From: a virus
Reading direction: 5' to 3' (one strand)
DNA length: 40,659 nucleotides
Virus record (IMG/VR): IMGVR_UViG_3300047319_000776
Span: 1 to 40,659 of that record
The notes beneath the pieces were generated by a model that was given only the letters and a program-made list of their open reading frames with translations, ran no database searches and was not told where the DNA came from. This document shows positions 23,426 through 30,697 of the stretch, one piece after another. Every line of letters begins with the position of its first letter. Position 1 is the first letter of the stretch. The position numbers and the translations under genes are program-made.

Positions 23426-23692
23426 CTAGCGTGCAATGAACTCCGCGTCGCGGCAGTTCGCCTGATCGATGGAGCGCTTCTCTCTCTGAGCTTTGAACGC
23501 TTCGTCCATACCGCACATCGCGCGCGCGTAAACGTCGCATTCCTCCAGTTGGGCGTGGGTCATCTGACCGATCGGCGTGTGCCTGCATGAAGGCCTGATT
23601 TGGTCTAGACTCTCCTGCCAGTTGGCCAGCGCGGGGCCGCAAAGCGCCGCGGCAAGCAGCCCAACGACGACGACGAATTTGATGCGGGCCAT
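23426..23692 (-). CDS. small secreted cysteine-containing protein
   Basis: An 88-residue protein with a clear signal peptide (MARIKFVVVVGLLAAALC, cleavage expected after ALA near residue 23). The mature part has four cysteines (PSCRH, EECD, AMCG, ANCRD), enough for two disulfides in the periplasm. The ATG overlaps the integrase stop (TGATG). As part of an operon likely to be on in the lysogen it may alter the host envelope; this is inference. Confidence 0.75.
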   Translation of the reverse strand: MARIKFVVVVGLLAAALCGPALANWQESLDQIRPSCRHTPIGQMTHAQLEECDVYARAMCGMDEAFKAQREKRSIDQANCRDAEFIAR

Positions 23693-25056
23693 CACGCCGC
23701 CTCCCTCAGTTGCACGACGTTGCTCGTGGTCGGCTCGGCCAGACCGGCGATCTCGAAAGCGGTACTCGCGCCGTCCAGCAGCAGGTCCGCCCAGGCGCAC
23801 GCAACGCGCAACCGATCGGGATCGGGCGCGCCGTCGAGGTCGGTGTCGTCATAATGCCGCGCCGCCAGCGACGGCCGGATCGGCAGGTGCGCCAGCATCA
23901 GGTCGATGATCGGTTCGTCGCGCCGGTCGCGCCGTTTCATGACCGTGTAGAACGTCGTCCGCCAGCCGTGGACGGTATGCCGCCCCGCCAGTTCGTCTGG
24001 CAGCGAGCGGTTCATCACTACGTTGACCACGGAAGCGTCGATAAAGCCGCCCTTCGCTCGACCGGGGAAACATGCCGGCGAGGCGATACCCAGGCCCCTA
24101 GCCAGCGCGCGCGCCGCGCAAAGCACCTCTATCGCCTGGGGTGCCAATGGGATGACGTGCGGCCGTTTCTTGCCGAGCTTGCCCTTCATCCGCTTGGCCG
24201 GAATCGTCCAGGTCCAACCGTCCGCCCCGTCGGTGATCTCGGACCACTCGGCCGCGAGGCCTTCCCGCTTGCGGACGGCGGTCAACGCGATCAGCCGGTG
24301 GGCGAGCTTGGCGAACGGCTGACCGTTGCTCAACATCTCGACCGCATCGAGGACGGCGCGCGCGTCCTCGATCGTTGTCACCGCCGGCCGGTTTACCTCG
24401 GCTTCGTCGCCGCGCACGCGCCGCGGCAAGTCCTCGGCGATGGTCCGCACCAGATTCTCGGTCACGCCGGTCTCGTGCTTGCGCCGTAGCGCGAAGTCGA
24501 ACATCGCCGACAAGTGCTGGCGGACATGCACCGCCTGGGTGCGATGCCGCTCGGAAAGATCGACCACCAGCGTCTCGATCTCGCCCGTCGTCACCCGGCC
24601 GATCGGACGCTCGCCAATCGCGGGATATACGTGGTTGGTCAGCCGGCCTGTGACGCACTTCGTAAAATGGGCAGACCAGCCCCGCGCCACGCTGGCGCGC
24701 TTGATCCAGGCATCGCCGATCGTCCGCACCGTCGCGGCCTCGGCGCCTTGTCGCGTCGCGCGTTGCTCGTGCCGCTCGATTGCCGGATCGCCGCCCGCTC
24801 GGACGGTCCGCTTGATCTCATCGCGCTTCGCCTTCGCTTCCTCGACGGTAAGCTCGGGCCAGCGGCCGACGATCGTCGCCTGATGCTTGCCGGCGACGTG
24901 GTAGTGAACCTGCCAGGACTTGGTTCCGTTCGGCGAGACCAGCAGATACAGCCCGTTGCCAAAGCGCAGCTTGGCGCCCGGCTTGGCGGTCTTGATCTCA
25001 GTGCCCTTGGCAAGCCTGCCGGCTTGCTGCGGGCGGGGGTGGGGTGTAGCGTTCAT
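23692..25056 (-). CDS. int: tyrosine integrase, P4 type
   Basis: A 454-residue site-specific recombinase. Residues 20-95 form the DUF4102-like arm-binding domain (KLRFGNGLYLLVSPNGTKSW). Residues 105-210 are the core-binding domain. The catalytic domain has Arg in ALTAVRKREGLAAEW (about 262), Lys near 289-291, HGWR (363-366), the second His in LMLAHLP (390) and the nucleophile Tyr402 in ARHYDD. ATG 25056 is chosen; longer readings to 25275 cross the hairpin at 25084-25114. It would insert the phage into the host chromosome, using sites probably in 25401-25645. Confidence 0.93.
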   Translation of the reverse strand: MNATPHPRPQQAGRLAKGTEIKTAKPGAKLRFGNGLYLLVSPNGTKSWQVHYHVAGKHQATIVGRWPELTVEEAKAKRDEIKRTVRAGGDPAIERHEQRATRQGAEAATVRTIGDAWIKRASVARGWSAHFTKCVTGRLTNHVYPAIGERPIGRVTTGEIETLVVDLSERHRTQAVHVRQHLSAMFDFALRRKHETGVTENLVRTIAEDLPRRVRGDEAEVNRPAVTTIEDARAVLDAVEMLSNGQPFAKLAHRLIALTAVRKREGLAAEWSEITDGADGWTWTIPAKRMKGKLGKKRPHVIPLAPQAIEVLCAARALARGLGIASPACFPGRAKGGFIDASVVNVVMNRSLPDELAGRHTVHGWRTTFYTVMKRRDRRDEPIIDLMLAHLPIRPSLAARHYDDTDLDGAPDPDRLRVACAWADLLLDGASTAFEIAGLAEPTTSNVVQLREAA

Positions 25057-25126: not shown

Positions 25127-25387
25127 CTAGTTGTGTCGAAGGCCGCTAAAGCGATCGATCGGCGGCCCGGCATCCTTGGGTGTGGTCTTTGTGGTGCAGG
25201 CGACGTTGATGCCGCCAGAACCGCAAAGCGTGTACGTTTTCGAATTGGGCGTCTCATAGGTGGACTGGCAGGCATAGACGCCCCGCGTCACCCGGCCGCA
25301 GCGGCTCTCGCCGGATGACTGGGCGTCTGCGCTGCCGCAGACAGCCACGGAGAGTAGCCCAGCGGCGGCGAGTAAGGCTTTGTGCAT
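25127..25387 (-). CDS. small secreted protein upstream of integrase
   Basis: An 86-residue protein with a signal peptide (MHKALLAAAGLLSVAVCGSA, cleavage near ADAQ). The mature part has four cysteines (ESRCG, YACQ, TLCG, VACT), suggesting two disulfides. It ends before a strong terminator and its promoter region carries the operator at 25456-25470. It is not homologous by eye to the secreted protein at 23426. It may be a lysogenic conversion factor, though its operator suggests repression in the lysogen. Confidence 0.7.
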   Translation of the reverse strand: MHKALLAAAGLLSVAVCGSADAQSSGESRCGRVTRGVYACQSTYETPNSKTYTLCGSGGINVACTTKTTPKDAGPPIDRFSGLRHN

Positions 25388-25430
25388 AGTCGGTTCCCTT
25401 TCATGCGAATCATGCGAAAATCATGCGGTA

Positions 25431-25445
25431 TGGAATGTCATTCCA
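25431..25445. repeat. perfect inverted repeat TGGAATG-T-CATTCCA
   Basis: Seven-base arms around a single T, between the TCATGCG cluster and the operator. It may be an Xis or regulator site. Confidence 0.5.
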
Positions 25446-25455
25446 GACGATCGTG

Positions 25456-25470
25456 TTGCCTATTAGGCAA
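25456..25470. promoter_or_regulatory. repressor operator O1
   Basis: TTGCCT-ATT-AGGCAA, a perfect palindrome extended by G and C on either side (GTTGCCTATTAGGCAAC). On the minus strand TTGATG and CACGAT lie on either side with 17 bases between, so it may occupy the spacer of the promoter for 25127 and the integrase, the same arrangement as at 30669-30697. Confidence 0.75.
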
Positions 25471-25845
25471 CTCATCAAGCGCCTAAGTTGCGGAAAAGGC
25501 AAGCTTTTGTCACCCAGCCGGGGCGTATGGTATGACTGGCCGTATTGTGGTGAACAATGCCGGTTTGGTGGGATAATCGCGTGATTTCAAACGGTTAGCC
25601 GAGGGGTTTGCGTTAACCATGCGAGAAATCATGCGACCGCGCATGGATGGTCCGCGTTGGTTGCATGAGTTGCAAGGCGCCGTCTCTCCGACCTGTCACC
25701 GCGAGCCGTCTACTGGAAGCGCGGTTAATCCTGATTAAGCGACGGCTACCCGGGGCGGCTCCTGCCAGATATTGCGTCCCCGTTCGATCGGTGTTTGCGT
25801 CCTGTCTAGACGTAGCCTCTGGCATCGAAGATTCGTTGCCTCCGT

Positions 25846-26154
25846 TCAATGCACCGTATGCCGGCCCGGCATATGGCCGAGCGCTTCGACCAGCGCGGTG
25901 CCGAGCAACGAGGTTGCTCGATCGTCGGCTAACTGAGGCGCGGCGCACACCATCGCCGCCAACGAGCGCAACACCGCCTCGGCCTGCTTGGTCGTCAGCA
26001 CCACCCGGAAGTCGCGATCGGTCAGCAGGATCACGTAATGGCCCTGCGCGGTATGTCCTAGCTCGACCATCAAGGTGTCCACCTCCGCGTCGTGCAGACG
26101 ACCGAATAGCTCCGCGACCGCCCTGGTGCCGCTGTAGCCACTGAACGTTCTCAC
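25846..26154 (-). CDS. hypothetical protein, last gene of left early operon
   Basis: A 102-residue protein from GTG 26154, overlapping the upstream stop (GTGA). The regular mix of strand and helix (GHYVILLTDRDFRVVLTTKQ, AEAVLRSLAAMVCAAP) supports a real fold, but no family is recognised. A palindrome TATGCCGG-C-CCGGCATA lies at 25857-25873 inside its 3' end and may take part in ending transcription. Confidence 0.65.
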   Translation of the reverse strand: MRTFSGYSGTRAVAELFGRLHDAEVDTLMVELGHTAQGHYVILLTDRDFRVVLTTKQAEAVLRSLAAMVCAAPQLADDRATSLLGTALVEALGHMPGRHTVH

Positions 26155-26309
26155 CGTTCGCCGCGCCAGATCGCGTCGAGCACATCAAGGTCGCTCTGAT
26201 TTGGAATACCAAGGCCGACGCCAACACTTGACCATCGCCGCGCCCAAACATGGACACGCCACGATCCCCATAGCCAGCGGATATGTCGAATGATCGGCCA
26301 CCGGCTCAT
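26151..26309 (-). CDS. tiny hypothetical protein, Trp/Arg-rich
   Basis: A 52-residue protein beginning MSRWPIIRHIRWLWGSWRV, rich in Trp and Arg and probably amphipathic or membrane-associated. ATG 26309 overlaps the stop of the upstream ORF (TGATG), and its own stop overlaps the next start. Translational coupling supports it. Function is unknown. Confidence 0.55.
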   Translation of the reverse strand: MSRWPIIRHIRWLWGSWRVHVWARRWSSVGVGLGIPNQSDLDVLDAIWRGER

Positions 26310-26542
26310 CACGGTCTCCCCTTCCGCTCGCGCACGTCCGGCGTCGGTGCCATGCGCGCCACTTCCTCGATCGATAGCGGCTTGCGCCATTGCAGCGTCG
26401 AGGTGTTGCCTTCGCCGACCGCCTCGATCAGCGCTTCGTCCGTTCCGACGTCGCGCATGATTCGATCCCGCGCCGCCTCAACCTCGCGTCTCAGTTTCAG
26501 GCTCCAACGGAGCACTGACACCGGTCCCGTCCGATCATGCAC
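26309..26542 (-). CDS. hypothetical protein, downstream half of a broken ORF
   Basis: A 77-residue reading from GTG 26542. The same frame continues upstream without any start codon through protein-like text (VYAGGRPLWQLSIAV) to a TGA at 26588-26590, and beyond that TGA it is the frame of the 43-residue ORF at 26588-26719. The two pieces probably come from one gene of about 136 codons. The visible part has basic helices (LKLRREVEAARDRIM). See the upstream piece. Confidence 0.55.
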   Translation of the reverse strand: MHDRTGPVSVLRWSLKLRREVEAARDRIMRDVGTDEALIEAVGEGNTSTLQWRKPLSIEEVARMAPTPDVRERKGRP

Positions 26543-26587
26543 AGCGATAGAAAGCTGCCAGAGCGGGCGACCACCGGCATAGACGCT

Positions 26588-26719
26588 TCACTCAAGTCCG
26601 AGGTTGACCGTGAGGCCCGCCGACATGACGCGACCGCAGCGCCAAAAGTGACCGGCGGTTATCTGCTTGAACGGATCGAACACCGGATGCGCGAGCGCGA
26701 ATTCGATCTGTGATCTCAT
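26588..26719 (-). pseudogene. upstream half of ORF interrupted by in-frame TGA
   Basis: A 43-residue ORF from ATG 26719, overlapping the upstream stop (ATGA). It reads MRSQIEFALAHPVFDPFK and ends GLTVNLGLE before TGA; the next in-frame codons continue as SVYAGGRPLWQLS. This suggests a nonsense mutation, a sequencing error, or stop read-through. If intact, one protein would span 26719 to 26309. Confidence 0.5.
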
Positions 26720-26970
26720 GTCCCCCGCCGATCCTCTGCCGCGAACAATTCGACGATCCGCGCGAGCACCTGTTTCCGCATAGCGATTCCGATATCAACC
26801 AACAGCTGTTGGTCTCTTATCGCCGCGCCCCCGACGATAACGCTTCCGTCAAGCGTCCGCATAACCGCCTCCAGGCGGACCGGCCCGACGCTCACCCACG
26901 CCGTCGCGATATCGTTCTCGCGCCGACCTCCGGTGTGGATCATAAGTTGCTCGATCTCGAATTCGTGCAT
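26716..26970 (-). CDS. hypothetical protein with strong ribosome binding site
   Basis: An 84-residue protein starting MHEFEIEQLMIHTGGRREND. AAGGAGGT lies six bases upstream of the ATG (26977-26984), one of the best in the operon. The text alternates strands and helices (LEAVMRTLDGSVIVGG, then MRKQVLARIVELFAAED). It is not recognised. Confidence 0.7.
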   Translation of the reverse strand: MHEFEIEQLMIHTGGRRENDIATAWVSVGPVRLEAVMRTLDGSVIVGGAAIRDQQLLVDIGIAMRKQVLARIVELFAAEDRRGT

Positions 26971-27221
26971 CGCTTTACCTCCTTCATCCTCGATCGCTTC
27001 GTCATGCCGGTTTTCCGGTGGCTACGCGGCGTCGCGCAGGCGACCGCTACGGTCGGACGCTCTGGCGCCGCAAGCCAGCCACGCCCTTCCGCGCAGGCGC
27101 GGCACCATGCCTGGGCCCTAGCACCGCGATCGATGAGCACGTCGCCCGGCGCATAGGTAGCCTCACAGCCTGGGGCGAACGTCATCGCCTTGCGGCCGCA
27201 AGCGCATCGCTGGAGCGTCAC
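26940..27221 (-). CDS. possible zinc-binding small protein
   Basis: A 93-residue reading from GTG 27221 with cysteines RCACG near residues 6-8, one at 19, and CRAC near 40-43, a pattern that could bind zinc. The C-terminal 30 residues are basic. It overlaps the next gene by 31 bases, so its true end or start may differ. It is coupled to the tiny ORF upstream (GTGA). Confidence 0.5.
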   Translation of the reverse strand: MTLQRCACGRKAMTFAPGCEATYAPGDVLIDRGARAQAWCRACAEGRGWLAAPERPTVAVACATPRSHRKTGMTKRSRMKEVKRCTNSRSSNL

Positions 27222-27292
27222 AGCACCAGGACGATCAAGCCGAACGCGATCCAGACCGTTCCGAGCAACGCGACCAAGCCGAGCAACCGCAC
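27218..27292 (-). CDS. 24-residue transmembrane peptide
   Basis: From GTG 27292, two bases after the preceding stop, the frame encodes one hydrophobic helix (RLLGLVALLGTVWIAFGLIV) and stops inside the next start codon (GTGA). Its tight fit between neighbours and full hydrophobicity suggest it is real; it is too short for codon statistics. Confidence 0.4.
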   Translation of the reverse strand: MRLLGLVALLGTVWIAFGLIVLVL

Positions 27293-27294
27293 GG

Positions 27295-27501
27295 TCAGCT
27301 ATCCTTCGCCATCGGATACATCATATCGGCGACAAGCTGTGCGGCTCTGCTAGTCAGAAAGGGCTTGTCGCAGCACGGGCACCTATCGAGCGGCAACCGC
27401 TCGCCGGCCGGCATGATGACGAGGCCGTCGATCCCTGGGAGGATCGCCAGCCCGTCGCTGCGCCTATTCTCGGTCCACCGTTGTTGTGGTTGATCGCTCA
27501 T
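27295..27501 (-). CDS. small zinc-ribbon-like protein
   Basis: A 68-residue protein (MSDQPQQRW start) with a CPCC motif in LDRCPCCDKPFLTSRAA, followed by a helix. One CxxC only, so metal binding would need a dimer or other residues. It overlaps the upstream gene by 38 bases. Function is unknown. Confidence 0.6.
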   Translation of the reverse strand: MSDQPQQRWTENRRSDGLAILPGIDGLVIMPAGERLPLDRCPCCDKPFLTSRAAQLVADMMYPMAKDS

Positions 27502-27679
27502 TGTGTTCCTCCAAATATCTGAGCACCGCTTCCATCACGTCCCACTGCCGGTCGATCTGGTTGCGCTTGTTGCGACCGGCGTCCGCCTTCCACTTGGGAT
27601 ACAGCGTCGCGCGCATCCGCAGTTCGCGCCGTACCTCCTCGATCATGTCGTCGATCGAGATCGGCAACAGGTCAGGCAT
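27464..27679 (-). CDS. small phage hypothetical protein
   Basis: A 71-residue helical protein starting MPDLLPISIDDMIEEVRREL and containing LRMRATLYPKWKADAGRNKR, a signature of short ORFs common in phage early operons. ATG 27679 overlaps the end of the excisionase-like gene. Function is unknown. Confidence 0.7.
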   Translation of the reverse strand: MPDLLPISIDDMIEEVRRELRMRATLYPKWKADAGRNKRNQIDRQWDVMEAVLRYLEEHNERSTTTTVDRE

Positions 27680-27911
27680 GACGCTTGTCCTGCGCATCGA
27701 CGAAGGCCACGTAATCGCTCGCGCGCCAGCGCTTGTATCGGCCGATTTCGATCGTCGGCCGGGGGAACTTACCCTCGTGCACCAGCCGGTATATCGACCG
27801 CTTGTCGAGGCTCATCAGGTCGGCGATCTGATCCACGTCGAGCAGTCTCGGCACGAGCTCACGGACGCTCGCTTCCTGATCGATCTCGACCAGCGTCGGC
27901 GCGGCCTTCAT
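27672..27911 (-). CDS. AlpA/excisionase-like HTH protein
   Basis: A 79-residue DNA-binding protein with a winged HTH of the MerR/AlpA type: LLDVDQIADLMSLDKRSIYR, then HEGKFPRP, GRYKRW and a final helix. P4-type integrases commonly work with AlpA-like directionality factors, so this is the best excisionase candidate, acting on sites near 25401-25645. It could equally be a transcription activator of the integrase. Confidence 0.8.
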   Translation of the reverse strand: MKAAPTLVEIDQEASVRELVPRLLDVDQIADLMSLDKRSIYRLVHEGKFPRPTIEIGRYKRWRASDYVAFVDAQDKRHA

Positions 27912-27912
27912 C

Positions 27913-28134
27913 TCAAGCCGCCGCACCGCGCACATGTAGTTGCGGCTGTCGCACATCCTCGATATCGAGTTGCTGCTCGCCGTGCCGCTCGCTGGGATCG
28001 TCTGGCATCTCGGCAATCCGATCGGACCAATACGTGGTTACGCGAACGCGACCCGCCACGCTTAGTTCGCGCAGATCGCGCAGCACGCGCTGCATCAGTT
28101 GAATCTCGTGGTCAGGCTTGTGCCGTGTGGTCAT
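27913..28134 (-). CDS. hypothetical early protein
   Basis: A 73-residue protein starting MTTRHKPDHEIQLMQRVLRD, helical at first and acidic at the end. ATG 28134 overlaps the Bet stop (ATGA), and it ends one base before the excisionase-like gene. The family is unknown. A role with Bet is suggested only by coupling. Confidence 0.65.
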   Translation of the reverse strand: MTTRHKPDHEIQLMQRVLRDLRELSVAGRVRVTTYWSDRIAEMPDDPSERHGEQQLDIEDVRQPQLHVRGAAA

Positions 28135-29312
28135 GTCGCGTTGCCTCCCTTCAATATCGCGCGCCGCGTTGCGATCGCTTCGTTGACGCGATCGAGATCG
28201 AGCGGAAACAGATCGCGCGTCTTGACCTTCCACGAAGCGCTGACCGTCAACGTGTCGAGTTCGTCGGCGTTCATCGCCTCGATCTCGGCAAGCAGTTCGC
28301 GGATCGGATCATCCGGCCAGTCGTCGCTCGGCGGCGGAACTTCATCGACCACCGTTCGGATACGCGCTTCGTTGATCCAATCTCTGATGTTTGCGCGAAT
28401 CAATTCCGGCGCCTTTTCCAGCGCGAGCTTCACGCGCGGATGGTTCTGGATCGCGATAACCTCGGCCTCGGTCGGAACGCTCGCCAGGACCGTCTGGACG
28501 TTCTTGACCCAGCGCGTGGCGTTCTGCTCCTCGAGCAACGCGAGACCGGCCGTAGCGTCGCCTGGGGGCGGCGGCGGGGGCGTCTGTTCGACCTGCCGGT
28601 CGCGGTCGATCATGCCGGGATCGCCCTGGTCAACCTTGCCCTCGATCGTCACGCCGCCCGTCTCGGTCTCGCGGTCCTCCATCTCCTCGGCGGTGTAGCC
28701 GGCCTCCTCGGGAAAGGCGGCGCGCAACACCGCAGCCTTGGTGCACTTGTGAAGCATCTGACGCGGCGCCTTGGTCCACCGCTCGTTGGGGATTTCGCTG
28801 CGGAAGCCGGCGCGGCCGTAGCACTCGATCCACCATAGTTGCTCGGTGAACTTGCGGGGCTGTCCGCCGATCAACCGATAAACCGTGAGCTTGCACCACT
28901 CGGGGAAATCGACGCTGAGCTCGGTCGTTTGCGTCGTGCCGTTGTCGTTTTCGGACGTGCCACGGAATGTCTTGGTAACGGTGGGGCCATATTCCGCCGC
29001 GTCCATGCCGGCCCACTGTTGGGTCCGCGCGGCGGTAATCTCGACCTCGTTGATCCCTTGCATCACCACCTGAACCTTGCGGCGCAGGCGCGAGTTATAC
29101 ATCGGCACCACATGCACCGGCCGCTTGTAGGGATCGAGATGGCGCACGGCACAGTATTCGACCACCGCCATGACGACTTCTGGCGTCTCGGCGTTGGGAT
29201 AGCATTCGCAGAGCGACCGCCAAGCCGCGTCGGTCCCGGCGAAGTTCGCTGGTTTGGTATACCTGGGCGCGATCGTAACCGCCTGCCGCTCGCGGGCTGC
29301 TGCCTGAGCCAT
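28131..29312 (-). CDS. bet: Bet single-strand annealing recombinase
   Basis: A 393-residue protein of the phage Bet/RecT superfamily. Diagnostic text lies between residues 55 and 100: AVRHLDPYKRPVHVVPMYNS, then LRRKVQVVMQGINEVEITA, and later WWIECYGRAGFRSEIPNERW and MLHKCTKAAVLRAAFPEE. A Pro-rich linker near 245 joins a C-terminal helical region that is longer than lambda Bet. It anneals single strands during phage recombination. A partner exonuclease is not adjacent; the VRR-NUC at 30966 is a candidate. Confidence 0.9.
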   Translation of the reverse strand: MAQAAARERQAVTIAPRYTKPANFAGTDAAWRSLCECYPNAETPEVVMAVVEYCAVRHLDPYKRPVHVVPMYNSRLRRKVQVVMQGINEVEITAARTQQWAGMDAAEYGPTVTKTFRGTSENDNGTTQTTELSVDFPEWCKLTVYRLIGGQPRKFTEQLWWIECYGRAGFRSEIPNERWTKAPRQMLHKCTKAAVLRAAFPEEAGYTAEEMEDRETETGGVTIEGKVDQGDPGMIDRDRQVEQTPPPPPPGDATAGLALLEEQNATRWVKNVQTVLASVPTEAEVIAIQNHPRVKLALEKAPELIRANIRDWINEARIRTVVDEVPPPSDDWPDDPIRELLAEIEAMNADELDTLTVSASWKVKTRDLFPLDLDRVNEAIATRRAILKGGNAT

Positions 29313-29315
29313 GTG

Positions 29316-29852
29316 TCAAAGCTTCCTGATCTGGAGATACGGCGCGGGATTCGACAACACCGCGCCGGGGATTACCACACCTTGCTCGAGGTCTTCGGCG
29401 AGCGGCGTTTTCATTAGTGTGCGTTCAATCCGGAAGTATTGATCGGGCACCAGTCCCTCGTCGGTGATCACGACGGAGGGGCGGCCCATGACCATACCGG
29501 CGCGGGCGAGCTTGGCGCGGTATGACTTCATATCGAGCGCGGTCAATAGCTGCTCGATGACCGTGCGGATCGTCTCGGCGCGCGCGCGATATCGATCGCG
29601 GCGCTGCACCATTTCGCGACGGAGGTTGTCCGCCTCAACCTCTCGCCGGTCGCACCACACAAGCGCGTCAATCGCGCGCTCTAGCAGCACTTCGGGATGC
29701 GTGATCTCGGCGTCGGCAAGCTCGCGGCTAATCCCTTCCTCATCGTCGGCTAGGACCGGATCGGCGGTATAAATCTCGCGCAACTGCTGCCATGCGGAGA
29801 CCGCACGTTCTAATTGCCAAGCCGAAGGAACCCGTGGTGCACTGTCGGACAT
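29316..29852 (-). CDS. siphovirus Gp157 family protein
   Basis: A 178-residue coiled-coil protein of the Gp157 family often found beside Bet/RecT genes. The central helix (NLRREMVQRRDRYRARAETI) and the C-terminal YLQIRKL, preceded by PGAVLSN, match the family layout. It is the first gene of the leftward early operon, 52 bases from operator O2. Family members are linked to phage recombination or resistance to host defence, without known mechanism. Confidence 0.85.
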   Translation of the reverse strand: MSDSAPRVPSAWQLERAVSAWQQLREIYTADPVLADDEEGISRELADAEITHPEVLLERAIDALVWCDRREVEADNLRREMVQRRDRYRARAETIRTVIEQLLTALDMKSYRAKLARAGMVMGRPSVVITDEGLVPDQYFRIERTLMKTPLAEDLEQGVVIPGAVLSNPAPYLQIRKL

Positions 29853-29903
29853 TCGTCAACTCCGCACGCTCGTTTGGGGGCCGTTCGCAGCCTAAGCGAA
29901 GAG

Positions 29904-29918
29904 TTGCCTAGAAGGCAA
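29904..29918. promoter_or_regulatory. repressor operator O2
   Basis: TTGCCT-AGA-AGGCAA, followed by a half-site-like AGGCAGG. It lies 52 bases upstream of the Gp157 start and should control the leftward early operon. A plus-strand promoter reading (TTGCCT, 17 bases, TAAATA at 29927-29932) is possible as well. Confidence 0.75.
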
Positions 29919-30000
29919 TAGGCAGGTAAATATGCTCATCAAACGATCGCTACTGATGATTGACAGATTGCCAGCAGCGCCCCACCATTCCGAGGTTGTG

Positions 30001-30015
30001 TCGCCTAAAAGGCAA
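30001..30015. promoter_or_regulatory. repressor operator O3
   Basis: TCGCCT-AAA-AGGCAA, one mismatch from the consensus. It lies between O2 and the basic ORF at 30107. A consensus TTGACA is at 29960-29965 but no good -10 follows. Confidence 0.65.
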
Positions 30016-30106
30016 CCGCTGGCAGCCGCAAGTGGCCGCGCGGGTGAGCGACGCGCAATCAGGATTTATCGCGGAAGGACGACCTCAAACCAGGAGACGT
30101 TCGTAA

Positions 30107-30283
30107 ATGCCCAAACGCAAAAGGGCTAAGGCTGTTTTCGAGGACGTGCCGCCGCTCCAGATGGTCGATCCTACGTACGCCGCGCGCGCTTTGGCGACGA
30201 TGGGGGAGAAGGCGGCACGGCTGGCCCGAAAAGCGCTGAAACGTAAGGGCTGTCGCGATAAGAAGCCAGCAACGCCTCCCTGA
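30107..30283 (+). CDS. small basic protein antisense to the repressor end
   Basis: A 58-residue Lys/Arg-rich protein (MPKRKRAKAVFEDVPPLQMV) with a good ribosome binding site (AGGAGA, about 9 bases upstream). Its 3' 113 bases overlap the repressor gene tail to tail. Being downstream of O3 it would be off in the lysogen. It may be an early nucleic-acid-binding protein, and its transcript would be antisense to the repressor mRNA. Confidence 0.5.
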   Translation: MPKRKRAKAVFEDVPPLQMVDPTYAARALATMGEKAARLARKALKRKGCRDKKPATPP

Positions 30284-30575
30284 GCTCCTGCCGCATATCA
30301 AGTCCTAGGCGACCGCGAAAGATGAAGTCGAGCGTGCAGCCGGTCGAGGCGCATATCAGGATCAGTGTTTCGATATTCGGCTGGCGGCTGCCATTTTCCC
30401 ACTTGTTGAGGATTTGCGGATTGATCAGCAATTCCCGCGCCCAATCGGCCTGGGTGTGGCCGAGAACCGCCCGCAGCATCCGCAATCGCGCACCCACCGC
30501 GACGAGCGTCGCACTGCTGATCGTCCGCTTCACCATACGGCGAGGATACTTTTTGCGGCGGATTCTCACTACCAT
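30171..30575 (-). CDS. XRE-family phage repressor
   Basis: A 134-residue protein with an HTH_XRE domain at about residues 25-85 (ARLRMLRAVLGHTQADWARE, then NKWENGSRQPNIETL). There is no LexA-like peptidase domain, so induction would not be by RecA-aided self-cleavage. ATG 30575 has AAAGGG upstream and lies 8 bases from operator O4; ATG 30536 is an alternative. It is the likely reader of TTGCCTnnnAGGCAA and probably represses its own gene. Confidence 0.8.
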   Translation of the reverse strand: MVVRIRRKKYPRRMVKRTISSATLVAVGARLRMLRAVLGHTQADWARELLINPQILNKWENGSRQPNIETLILICASTGCTLDFIFRGRLGLDMRQELREALLASYRDSPYVSALFGPAVPPSPPSSPKRARRT

Positions 30576-30582
30576 CGTCTAG

Positions 30583-30597
30583 TTGCCCTTTAGGCAA
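30583..30597. promoter_or_regulatory. repressor operator O4
   Basis: TTGCCC-TTT-AGGCAA, one mismatch. It covers the expected start of repressor transcription and touches the -10 box, consistent with autoregulation. Confidence 0.75.
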
Positions 30598-30626
30598 TTA
30601 TACCCGCTATCCACAAGCCCTGCCAA
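30597..30626 (-). promoter_or_regulatory. repressor promoter
   Basis: On the minus strand a TTGGCA -35 (30626-30621), an 18-base spacer and a perfect TATAAT -10 (30602-30597) precede the repressor start codon by about 20 bases. Confidence 0.75.
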
Positions 30627-30668
30627 TCAACCGCCGGTGGCAACGTGAATTCGCCATATCGCGCCAAC

Positions 30669-30697
30669 TTGACCGTTGCCTTGTAGGCAATTATCGT
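30669..30697 (+). promoter_or_regulatory. rightward early promoter with operator O5 in its spacer
   Basis: A TTGACC -35 at 30669-30674 and a TATCGT -10 at 30692-30697 are separated by 17 bases that contain operator O5 (TTGCCT-TGT-AGGCAA, 30676-30690). Bound repressor would block polymerase. The expected start site is near 30704, only a few bases from the ATG at 30708. Confidence 0.75.

Follow-up and report, generated by a model that had tools for sequence, protein, structure and literature searches.

Which protein reads a set of nearly identical palindromes spread over the immunity region and the integrase side of the virus record IMGVR_UViG_3300047319_000776, and what would its binding achieve? 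The whole stretch analysed here (40,659 bases, hereafter the window) carries xre, which encodes an XRE/CI-like repressor, and, divergent from it, a Cro-like gene. A sequence-only reading had assigned five copies of TTGCCTN3AGGCAA (core TTGCC-N5-GGCAA) to a single operator family of the phage repressor. We propose, at a probability of roughly 0.88, that these palindromes serve the phage's own XRE/CI-like repressor as operators, through which it would shut off early and integrase transcription in the lysogen. The proposal draws on direct observations, namely the sites, their rarity, their conservation by slot, a consensus promoter geometry and the change of the arms with the XRE. The single operator family is strongly supported by the comparison with relatives: the same promoters carry it in 12 contigs, and other arms appear where the XRE has diverged.

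A motif scan of the window found TTGCCTN3AGGCAA with at most one mismatch at precisely the five places claimed and nowhere else, without mismatch at 25456, 29904 and 30676 and with one mismatch at 30001 and 30583. Markov models of order 1-3 (100 simulations each) expect only 0.05-0.12 such sites, and a reversed control pattern has no site in the window. The excess is weaker at up to three mismatches, with 19 sites observed against 11.0 expected, a count equalled by 3 of 100 shuffles. The spacing is also specific: among exact TTGCC-Nk-GGCAA pairs in the window, with k from 0 to 20, four have k=5, one has k=10 and one has k=12. All five sites had been called intergenic, and we agree that none lies inside an open reading frame (ORF) taken as a real gene; this is a judgement, in which small overlapping ORFs (e.g. 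29932-30129) were regarded as chance frames. The set of five is complete at one mismatch, but a conserved degenerate sixth copy with two mismatches lies next to the integrase-side site.

Relatives were gathered by scans with the XRE, the Cro-like protein and the motif, which gave a family set of 12 contigs, the window and 11 others (L005, L014, L015, L016, L017, L018, L019, L033, L040, L043 and L045; further locus identifiers of this set denote other cuts of the same contigs). Eight relatives have an XRE 48-84% identical to that of the window, and the other three are 64-82% identical to another member. The core is exact in all 12 contigs at the promoter before the Cro-like gene (PR) and at xre, and in 11 of 12 at the promoter of the leftward operon (PL), whereas the full motif is exact in 10 contigs at PL, seven at PR and only one at xre. 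Across five phages, per-site identity is 92-100% in the arms, compared to 29-63% in the 30-base flanks on either side. In the viral_contigs collection, the motif combined with the -35 pattern retrieved 17 contigs, comprising five known members (L005, L014, L016, L017 and L018), one new member (L033) and 11 without the family XRE; the pattern alone therefore fails to identify the system. An XRE alignment scan of genome_contigs, with 24 pattern matches, confirmed none of them as a relative.

All promoters named here are predictions from sequence. The PR operator fills the 17-bp spacer of TTGACC-N17-TATCGT, and a TTGACC-N17-TAnnnT arrangement with the operator in its spacer is kept at PR in 10 of the 12 contigs. 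Between its flanking AYCATGCGA repeats, the integrase-side operator occupies the spacer of TTGATG-N17-CACGAT, read leftward, and TTGATG-N17-(C/T)ACGAT around this operator is common to the window, L016 and L017. The xre site shares one base with the -10 element of TTGGCA-N18-TATAAT on the minus strand, and 7 nt separate its end from the ATG, so that an operator here would cover the start site. In the slot before a small basic ORF, the form TCGCC..GGCAA is found in five of the seven contigs where the slot could be assigned. The PL centre reads AGA on the plus strand in the window and TCT in four relatives, which is the same triplet on the other strand.

Graded affinity had been ascribed to a central triplet peculiar to each site. 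From 25456 to 30676 the triplets are ATT, AGA, AAA, TTT and TGT, and they are not all distinct because AAA (30001) and TTT (30583) are one triplet on opposite strands. Grading as such is plausible, and seven of the 12 contigs share one PR centre, but a clearer signal comes from the imperfect arms at the xre and basic-ORF sites. The self-site at xre has the exact full motif in 1/12 cases, compared to 17/24 at PL and PR together (Fisher p = 0.0009, only a guide because related contigs are counted as independent). The mismatch falls nearly always on the inner pair at xre and on the second arm base at the basic-ORF site. It is on the systematically imperfect self-site that a plausible grading would rest, and the pattern fits early promoters being repressed first and self-repression following later. 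The imperfection might instead reflect a built-in ribosome-binding AAGG rather than tuned affinity, an explanation to which we grant a substantial but less than even chance. AAGG is read in the xre sense in seven of the 12 contigs, and in the window, as in several relatives, 7 nt lie between the site and the ATG; however, AAGG is absent from the other five, four of which are still imperfect. In the seven contigs that have it, the AAGG might account for part of the imperfection.

The protein that reads the sites was approached through eight related loci (L046-L052 and L055), in which no XRE was detected or its identity to a family member does not exceed 39%. TTGCC-N5-GGCAA is present in none of the eight, and seven have other arms in the same 5-N5-5 geometry, TTGCA in one and GGGGC in six. 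In L055, the most telling case, the RecT is 57%, 'down' 86%, Cro 48% and XRE 37% identical, and there is no TTGCC site; within 13.9 kb there are four exact copies of TTGCA-N5-TGCAA, one at xre, one at PL and two on the side of the integrase, and PR has a degenerate copy. GGGGC-N5-GCCCC lies at xre in L046-L051, although three of these six loci (L048, L049 and L050) seem to have the same sequence at this place; in the loci read, exact copies are confined to the immunity region. The repressor-like ORF of L052 is different and longer, and this locus belongs to neither the TTGCA nor the GGGGC type. In these comparisons, the operator arms track the repressor and neither the Cro-like protein nor the backbone. 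Residues Q42, N57 and K58 of XRE are invariant in nine of nine aligned members and Q54 in eight of nine; Q42, Q54 and K58 presumably align with the contact residues of 434. The recognition helix of XRE differs in the TTGCA and GGGGC types, whereas that of Cro varies among phages with unchanged TTGCC operators. Because the arms change with XRE type while the Cro helix changes within the TTGCC type, XRE is the likely reader of the TTGCC sites.

The main contender for this role is the Cro-like (carph-isopro) protein, either as the principal reader or competing with XRE for the same sites as in lambda, and we consider it unlikely. Its AlphaFold2 model matches Xfaso 1 Cro (3bd1, Z 8.8) as the closest helix-turn-helix (HTH) fold, its gene diverges from xre and has an operator in front of it, and in lambdoid phages both proteins compete for the operators. 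However, the PR operator of L007 is that of the window, yet its Cro is only 44-46% identical and has the helix DDTQVCKW in place of SNTTISHW; L033 likewise differs. Moreover, the Cro of L055 is 48% identical to that of L033, yet L055 lacks a TTGCC site.

The site at 25456 had been placed before an integrase-side gene. It does lie on the integrase side, but the adjoining gene is an 86-codon ORF, beyond which comes the integrase. The AYCATGCGA repeats around it suggest a phage attachment site (attP), and their left-to-right interval is 207 bp in the window, L016 and L017. The degenerate sixth copy lies inside a conserved block and is kept in two relatives. The 25456/25488 pair could be part of the attachment site, as integrase core-type sites or the crossover region, and not an operator, which seems to us somewhat less probable than a Cro-like reader. 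The pair lies between the repeats at their fixed interval, and phages with integrases of about 60% identity share the block almost unchanged; on the other hand, the site at 25456 is an exact match to the immunity operators, and its position in a promoter-like spacer is the one seen at PR. No attB was found: a search of genome_contigs with a 19-mer taken from the middle of the block gave no match, which leaves room for a core elsewhere or an unsampled host. The idea of the block as a common attB was thus not supported. A 20-mer from the block matched only the contigs of L016 and L017 in viral_contigs.

That the palindromes are chance occurrences or RNA hairpins in transcripts is exceedingly improbable: a stem of 6 bp with a 3-base loop could form in RNA, but the chance count is tiny and the spacing fixed, the PR site lies between -35 and -10 and hence upstream of the transcript, and the arms change with XRE type.

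Several points weigh against assigning the sites to the repressor. The contigs cannot be counted as independent, with L016 and L017 near identical in the region and several sharing ancestry; L019 has no clean PL site, the TTGACC geometry at PR is missing from L019 as well as from L040, and a single phage stands for the TTGCA type. In addition, the -10 elements are mostly weak, and a promoter scan gave two promoter-like sites against 1.7 expected by chance, so that conservation carries the promoter argument. The raw p-values of a de novo repeat search were poorly calibrated, with about 6 of 38 control windows scoring equally well, and we therefore relied on slot position and recurrence.

With the repressor as the reader, we infer the binding, its dimer mode, the order of affinities, the effect on transcription and an antisense step as follows. 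XRE would bind as a dimer, each TTGCC arm being one half-site, with 10 bp from one arm centre to the other. In the lysogen, the repressor would occupy the spacers of PR and of the integrase-side promoter, in addition to PL and the basic-ORF promoter, and would thereby turn early and integrase transcription off. At its own promoter, the operator would cover the -10 end and the start site and, as this self-site is systematically imperfect, the repressor would limit its own synthesis only at higher concentration. Loss of the repressor would release all promoters together, after which the basic-ORF transcript would run against the 3' end of xre. With an operator of its own, the basic ORF possibly has an antisense or anti-repressor role.

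One relative has more sites. The record behind L033 (G008, 34,596 bases, also the source of L038 and L039) has ten exact TTGCC-N5-GGCAA cores, compared to four in the window, where Markov models expect 0.05-0.22. All ten are at spacing 5, and there are only two one-mismatch cores. Three of the ten lie in immunity slots, and the other seven partly before genes and partly inside coding frames. These sites possibly form a wider regulon.

The features are collected in the table below. XRE has a basic N-terminal arm, an HTH at about residues 26-88 and a short C-terminal tail. Its HTH_3 match scores 41.3 bits against a cutoff of 23, and it also matches PHROG repressor families and, as a profile, P22 C2 in the PDB (E 1.3e-4). 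The AlphaFold2 model (mean predicted local distance difference test score 77) adopts an HTH (XRE) fold, and P2 C (2xcj) aligns to it with Z 9.2 and a root-mean-square deviation of 2.4 over 78 residues. No peptidase family of Pfam or NCBIfam was matched that would indicate an S24 peptidase domain, and the tail after the HTH is short in nine aligned members. The basic ORF has a tblastn match in six of the 11 family contigs, and candidate basic ORFs lie at the same place in L019 and L033; the protein family libraries gave no match for it. The integrase start at 25056 is likely, the frame being open to 25275. The 86-codon ORF is possibly a lysogenic-conversion gene, and L017 has a different sequence in its place.

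Table. Predicted operators and neighbouring features of the window.
Feature	Coordinates	Strand	Remarks
xre-promoter operator TTGCCCTTTAGGCAA	30583..30597	n/a	core exact in 12/12 contigs, full perfect motif in 1/12
PR operator TTGCCTTGTAGGCAA, before Cro-like gene	30676..30690	n/a	identical in 7/12 contigs
PL operator TTGCCTAGAAGGCAA, before leftward Gp157-RecT operon	29904..29918	n/a	exact TTGCCTN3AGGCAA in 10/12 contigs
Basic-ORF operator TCGCCTAAAAGGCAA	30001..30015	n/a	3' of rightward promoter-like TTGACA, before basic ORF
Integrase-side operator TTGCCTATTAGGCAA	25456..25470	n/a	also in L016, L017
Degenerate sixth copy TTGCGGAAAAGGCAA	25488..25502	n/a	2 mismatches, 32 bp from 25456
xre, CI-like repressor, 134 aa	30171..30575	-	Pfam HTH_3, E 1.6e-10
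Cro-like HTH protein, 82 aa	30708..30956	+	NCBIfam carph-isopro domain NF046037, E 3.9e-14, above cutoff
Small basic ORF, 58 aa	30107..30283	+	convergent with xre, 113-nt overlap of xre 3' end
Gp157-like, first gene of leftward operon	29316..29852	-	Pfam Sipho_Gp157, E 4.2e-11
RecT/Bet-like single-strand annealing protein	28131..29312	-	Pfam RecT, E 3.5e-18; NCBIfam bet_lambda
Tyrosine integrase	23692..25056	-	Pfam Arm-DNA-bind_3, E 1.1e-18; PHROG integrase
86-codon ORF, signal-peptide-like start	25127-25387	-	between integrase-side operator and integrase
AYCATGCGA repeats	25409..25636 (25409; 25616, 25628)	n/a	candidate integrase arm sites flanking putative attP

The arrangement resembles that of the lambdoid phages (lambda, 434 and P22) in the divergent repressor and Cro-like genes, the operators over early promoters, the several specificities on one layout and the P22 C2-like HTH of XRE. 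Repeated palindromes lie over the predicted early promoters and the repressor's own predicted promoter. Compared to the familiar three-site OR/OL of lambdoid phages, however, the window has one operator per promoter; in place of three adjacent operators between repressor and cro, one lies at xre and one at PR, 93 bp apart. Moreover, its repressor has only 134 residues with no peptidase domain detected, and there are extra operators at the integrase side and a convergent basic ORF. The short repressor and the alignment of P2 C to the XRE model recall P2 and 186. In phage 186, one protein, Apl, is reported to bind both att and the pR-pL region, at direct repeats one helix turn apart (PMC7498355). 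The window operators likewise lie at both the integrase side and the early promoters, but they are inverted repeats, and their likely reader is the repressor, not a directionality factor. The ten cores of G008 recall in number the stoperators of Cluster A mycobacteriophages, dispersed sites at which the repressor stops elongation. Such sites are many across the genome there, and the repressor is reported to be a monomer on an asymmetric site (PMC9283540); the sites here are symmetric, and the window itself has only five.

The SOS patterns GTTC-N7-GTTC and GAAC-N7-GAAC are absent from the window, as is the CtrA-type TTAA-N7-TTAA from the window, L015, L016 and L017. The named phages MW202785 and OP596612, with weak XRE matches, have no TTGCC-type repeat among their best de novo repeats, none of which is convincing. 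The closest terminase is that of Komagataeibacter phage phiKM1 (60.5%), and the integrase has matches only below 60%, in plasmids. Among the papers listed by literature searches, with most subscription journals outside their scope, no description of this family was apparent. We regard the kind of switch as ordinary and known, and the temperate-phage family as apparently undescribed. A bolder idea, which we hold to be improbable, is an undescribed immunity family with a 15-bp 5-N5-5 layout and at least three specificities that change with the recognition helix. It would include a double-negative loop, in which the repressor silences a convergent promoter and the transcript and basic protein from that promoter act against xre, and in G008 a symmetric-site analogue of stoperators at ten places, both within genes and between them.

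The analysis yields an operator set, its layout and its likely reader for an apparently undescribed family of temperate phages. One layout with three operator types amounts to a natural experiment, in which repressor specificity, and hence superinfection immunity, changes while the promoters stay fixed, and the types are testable with short synthetic DNA and the 134-residue proteins. If the integrase-side operator is real, it would couple excision directly with the loss of repression.

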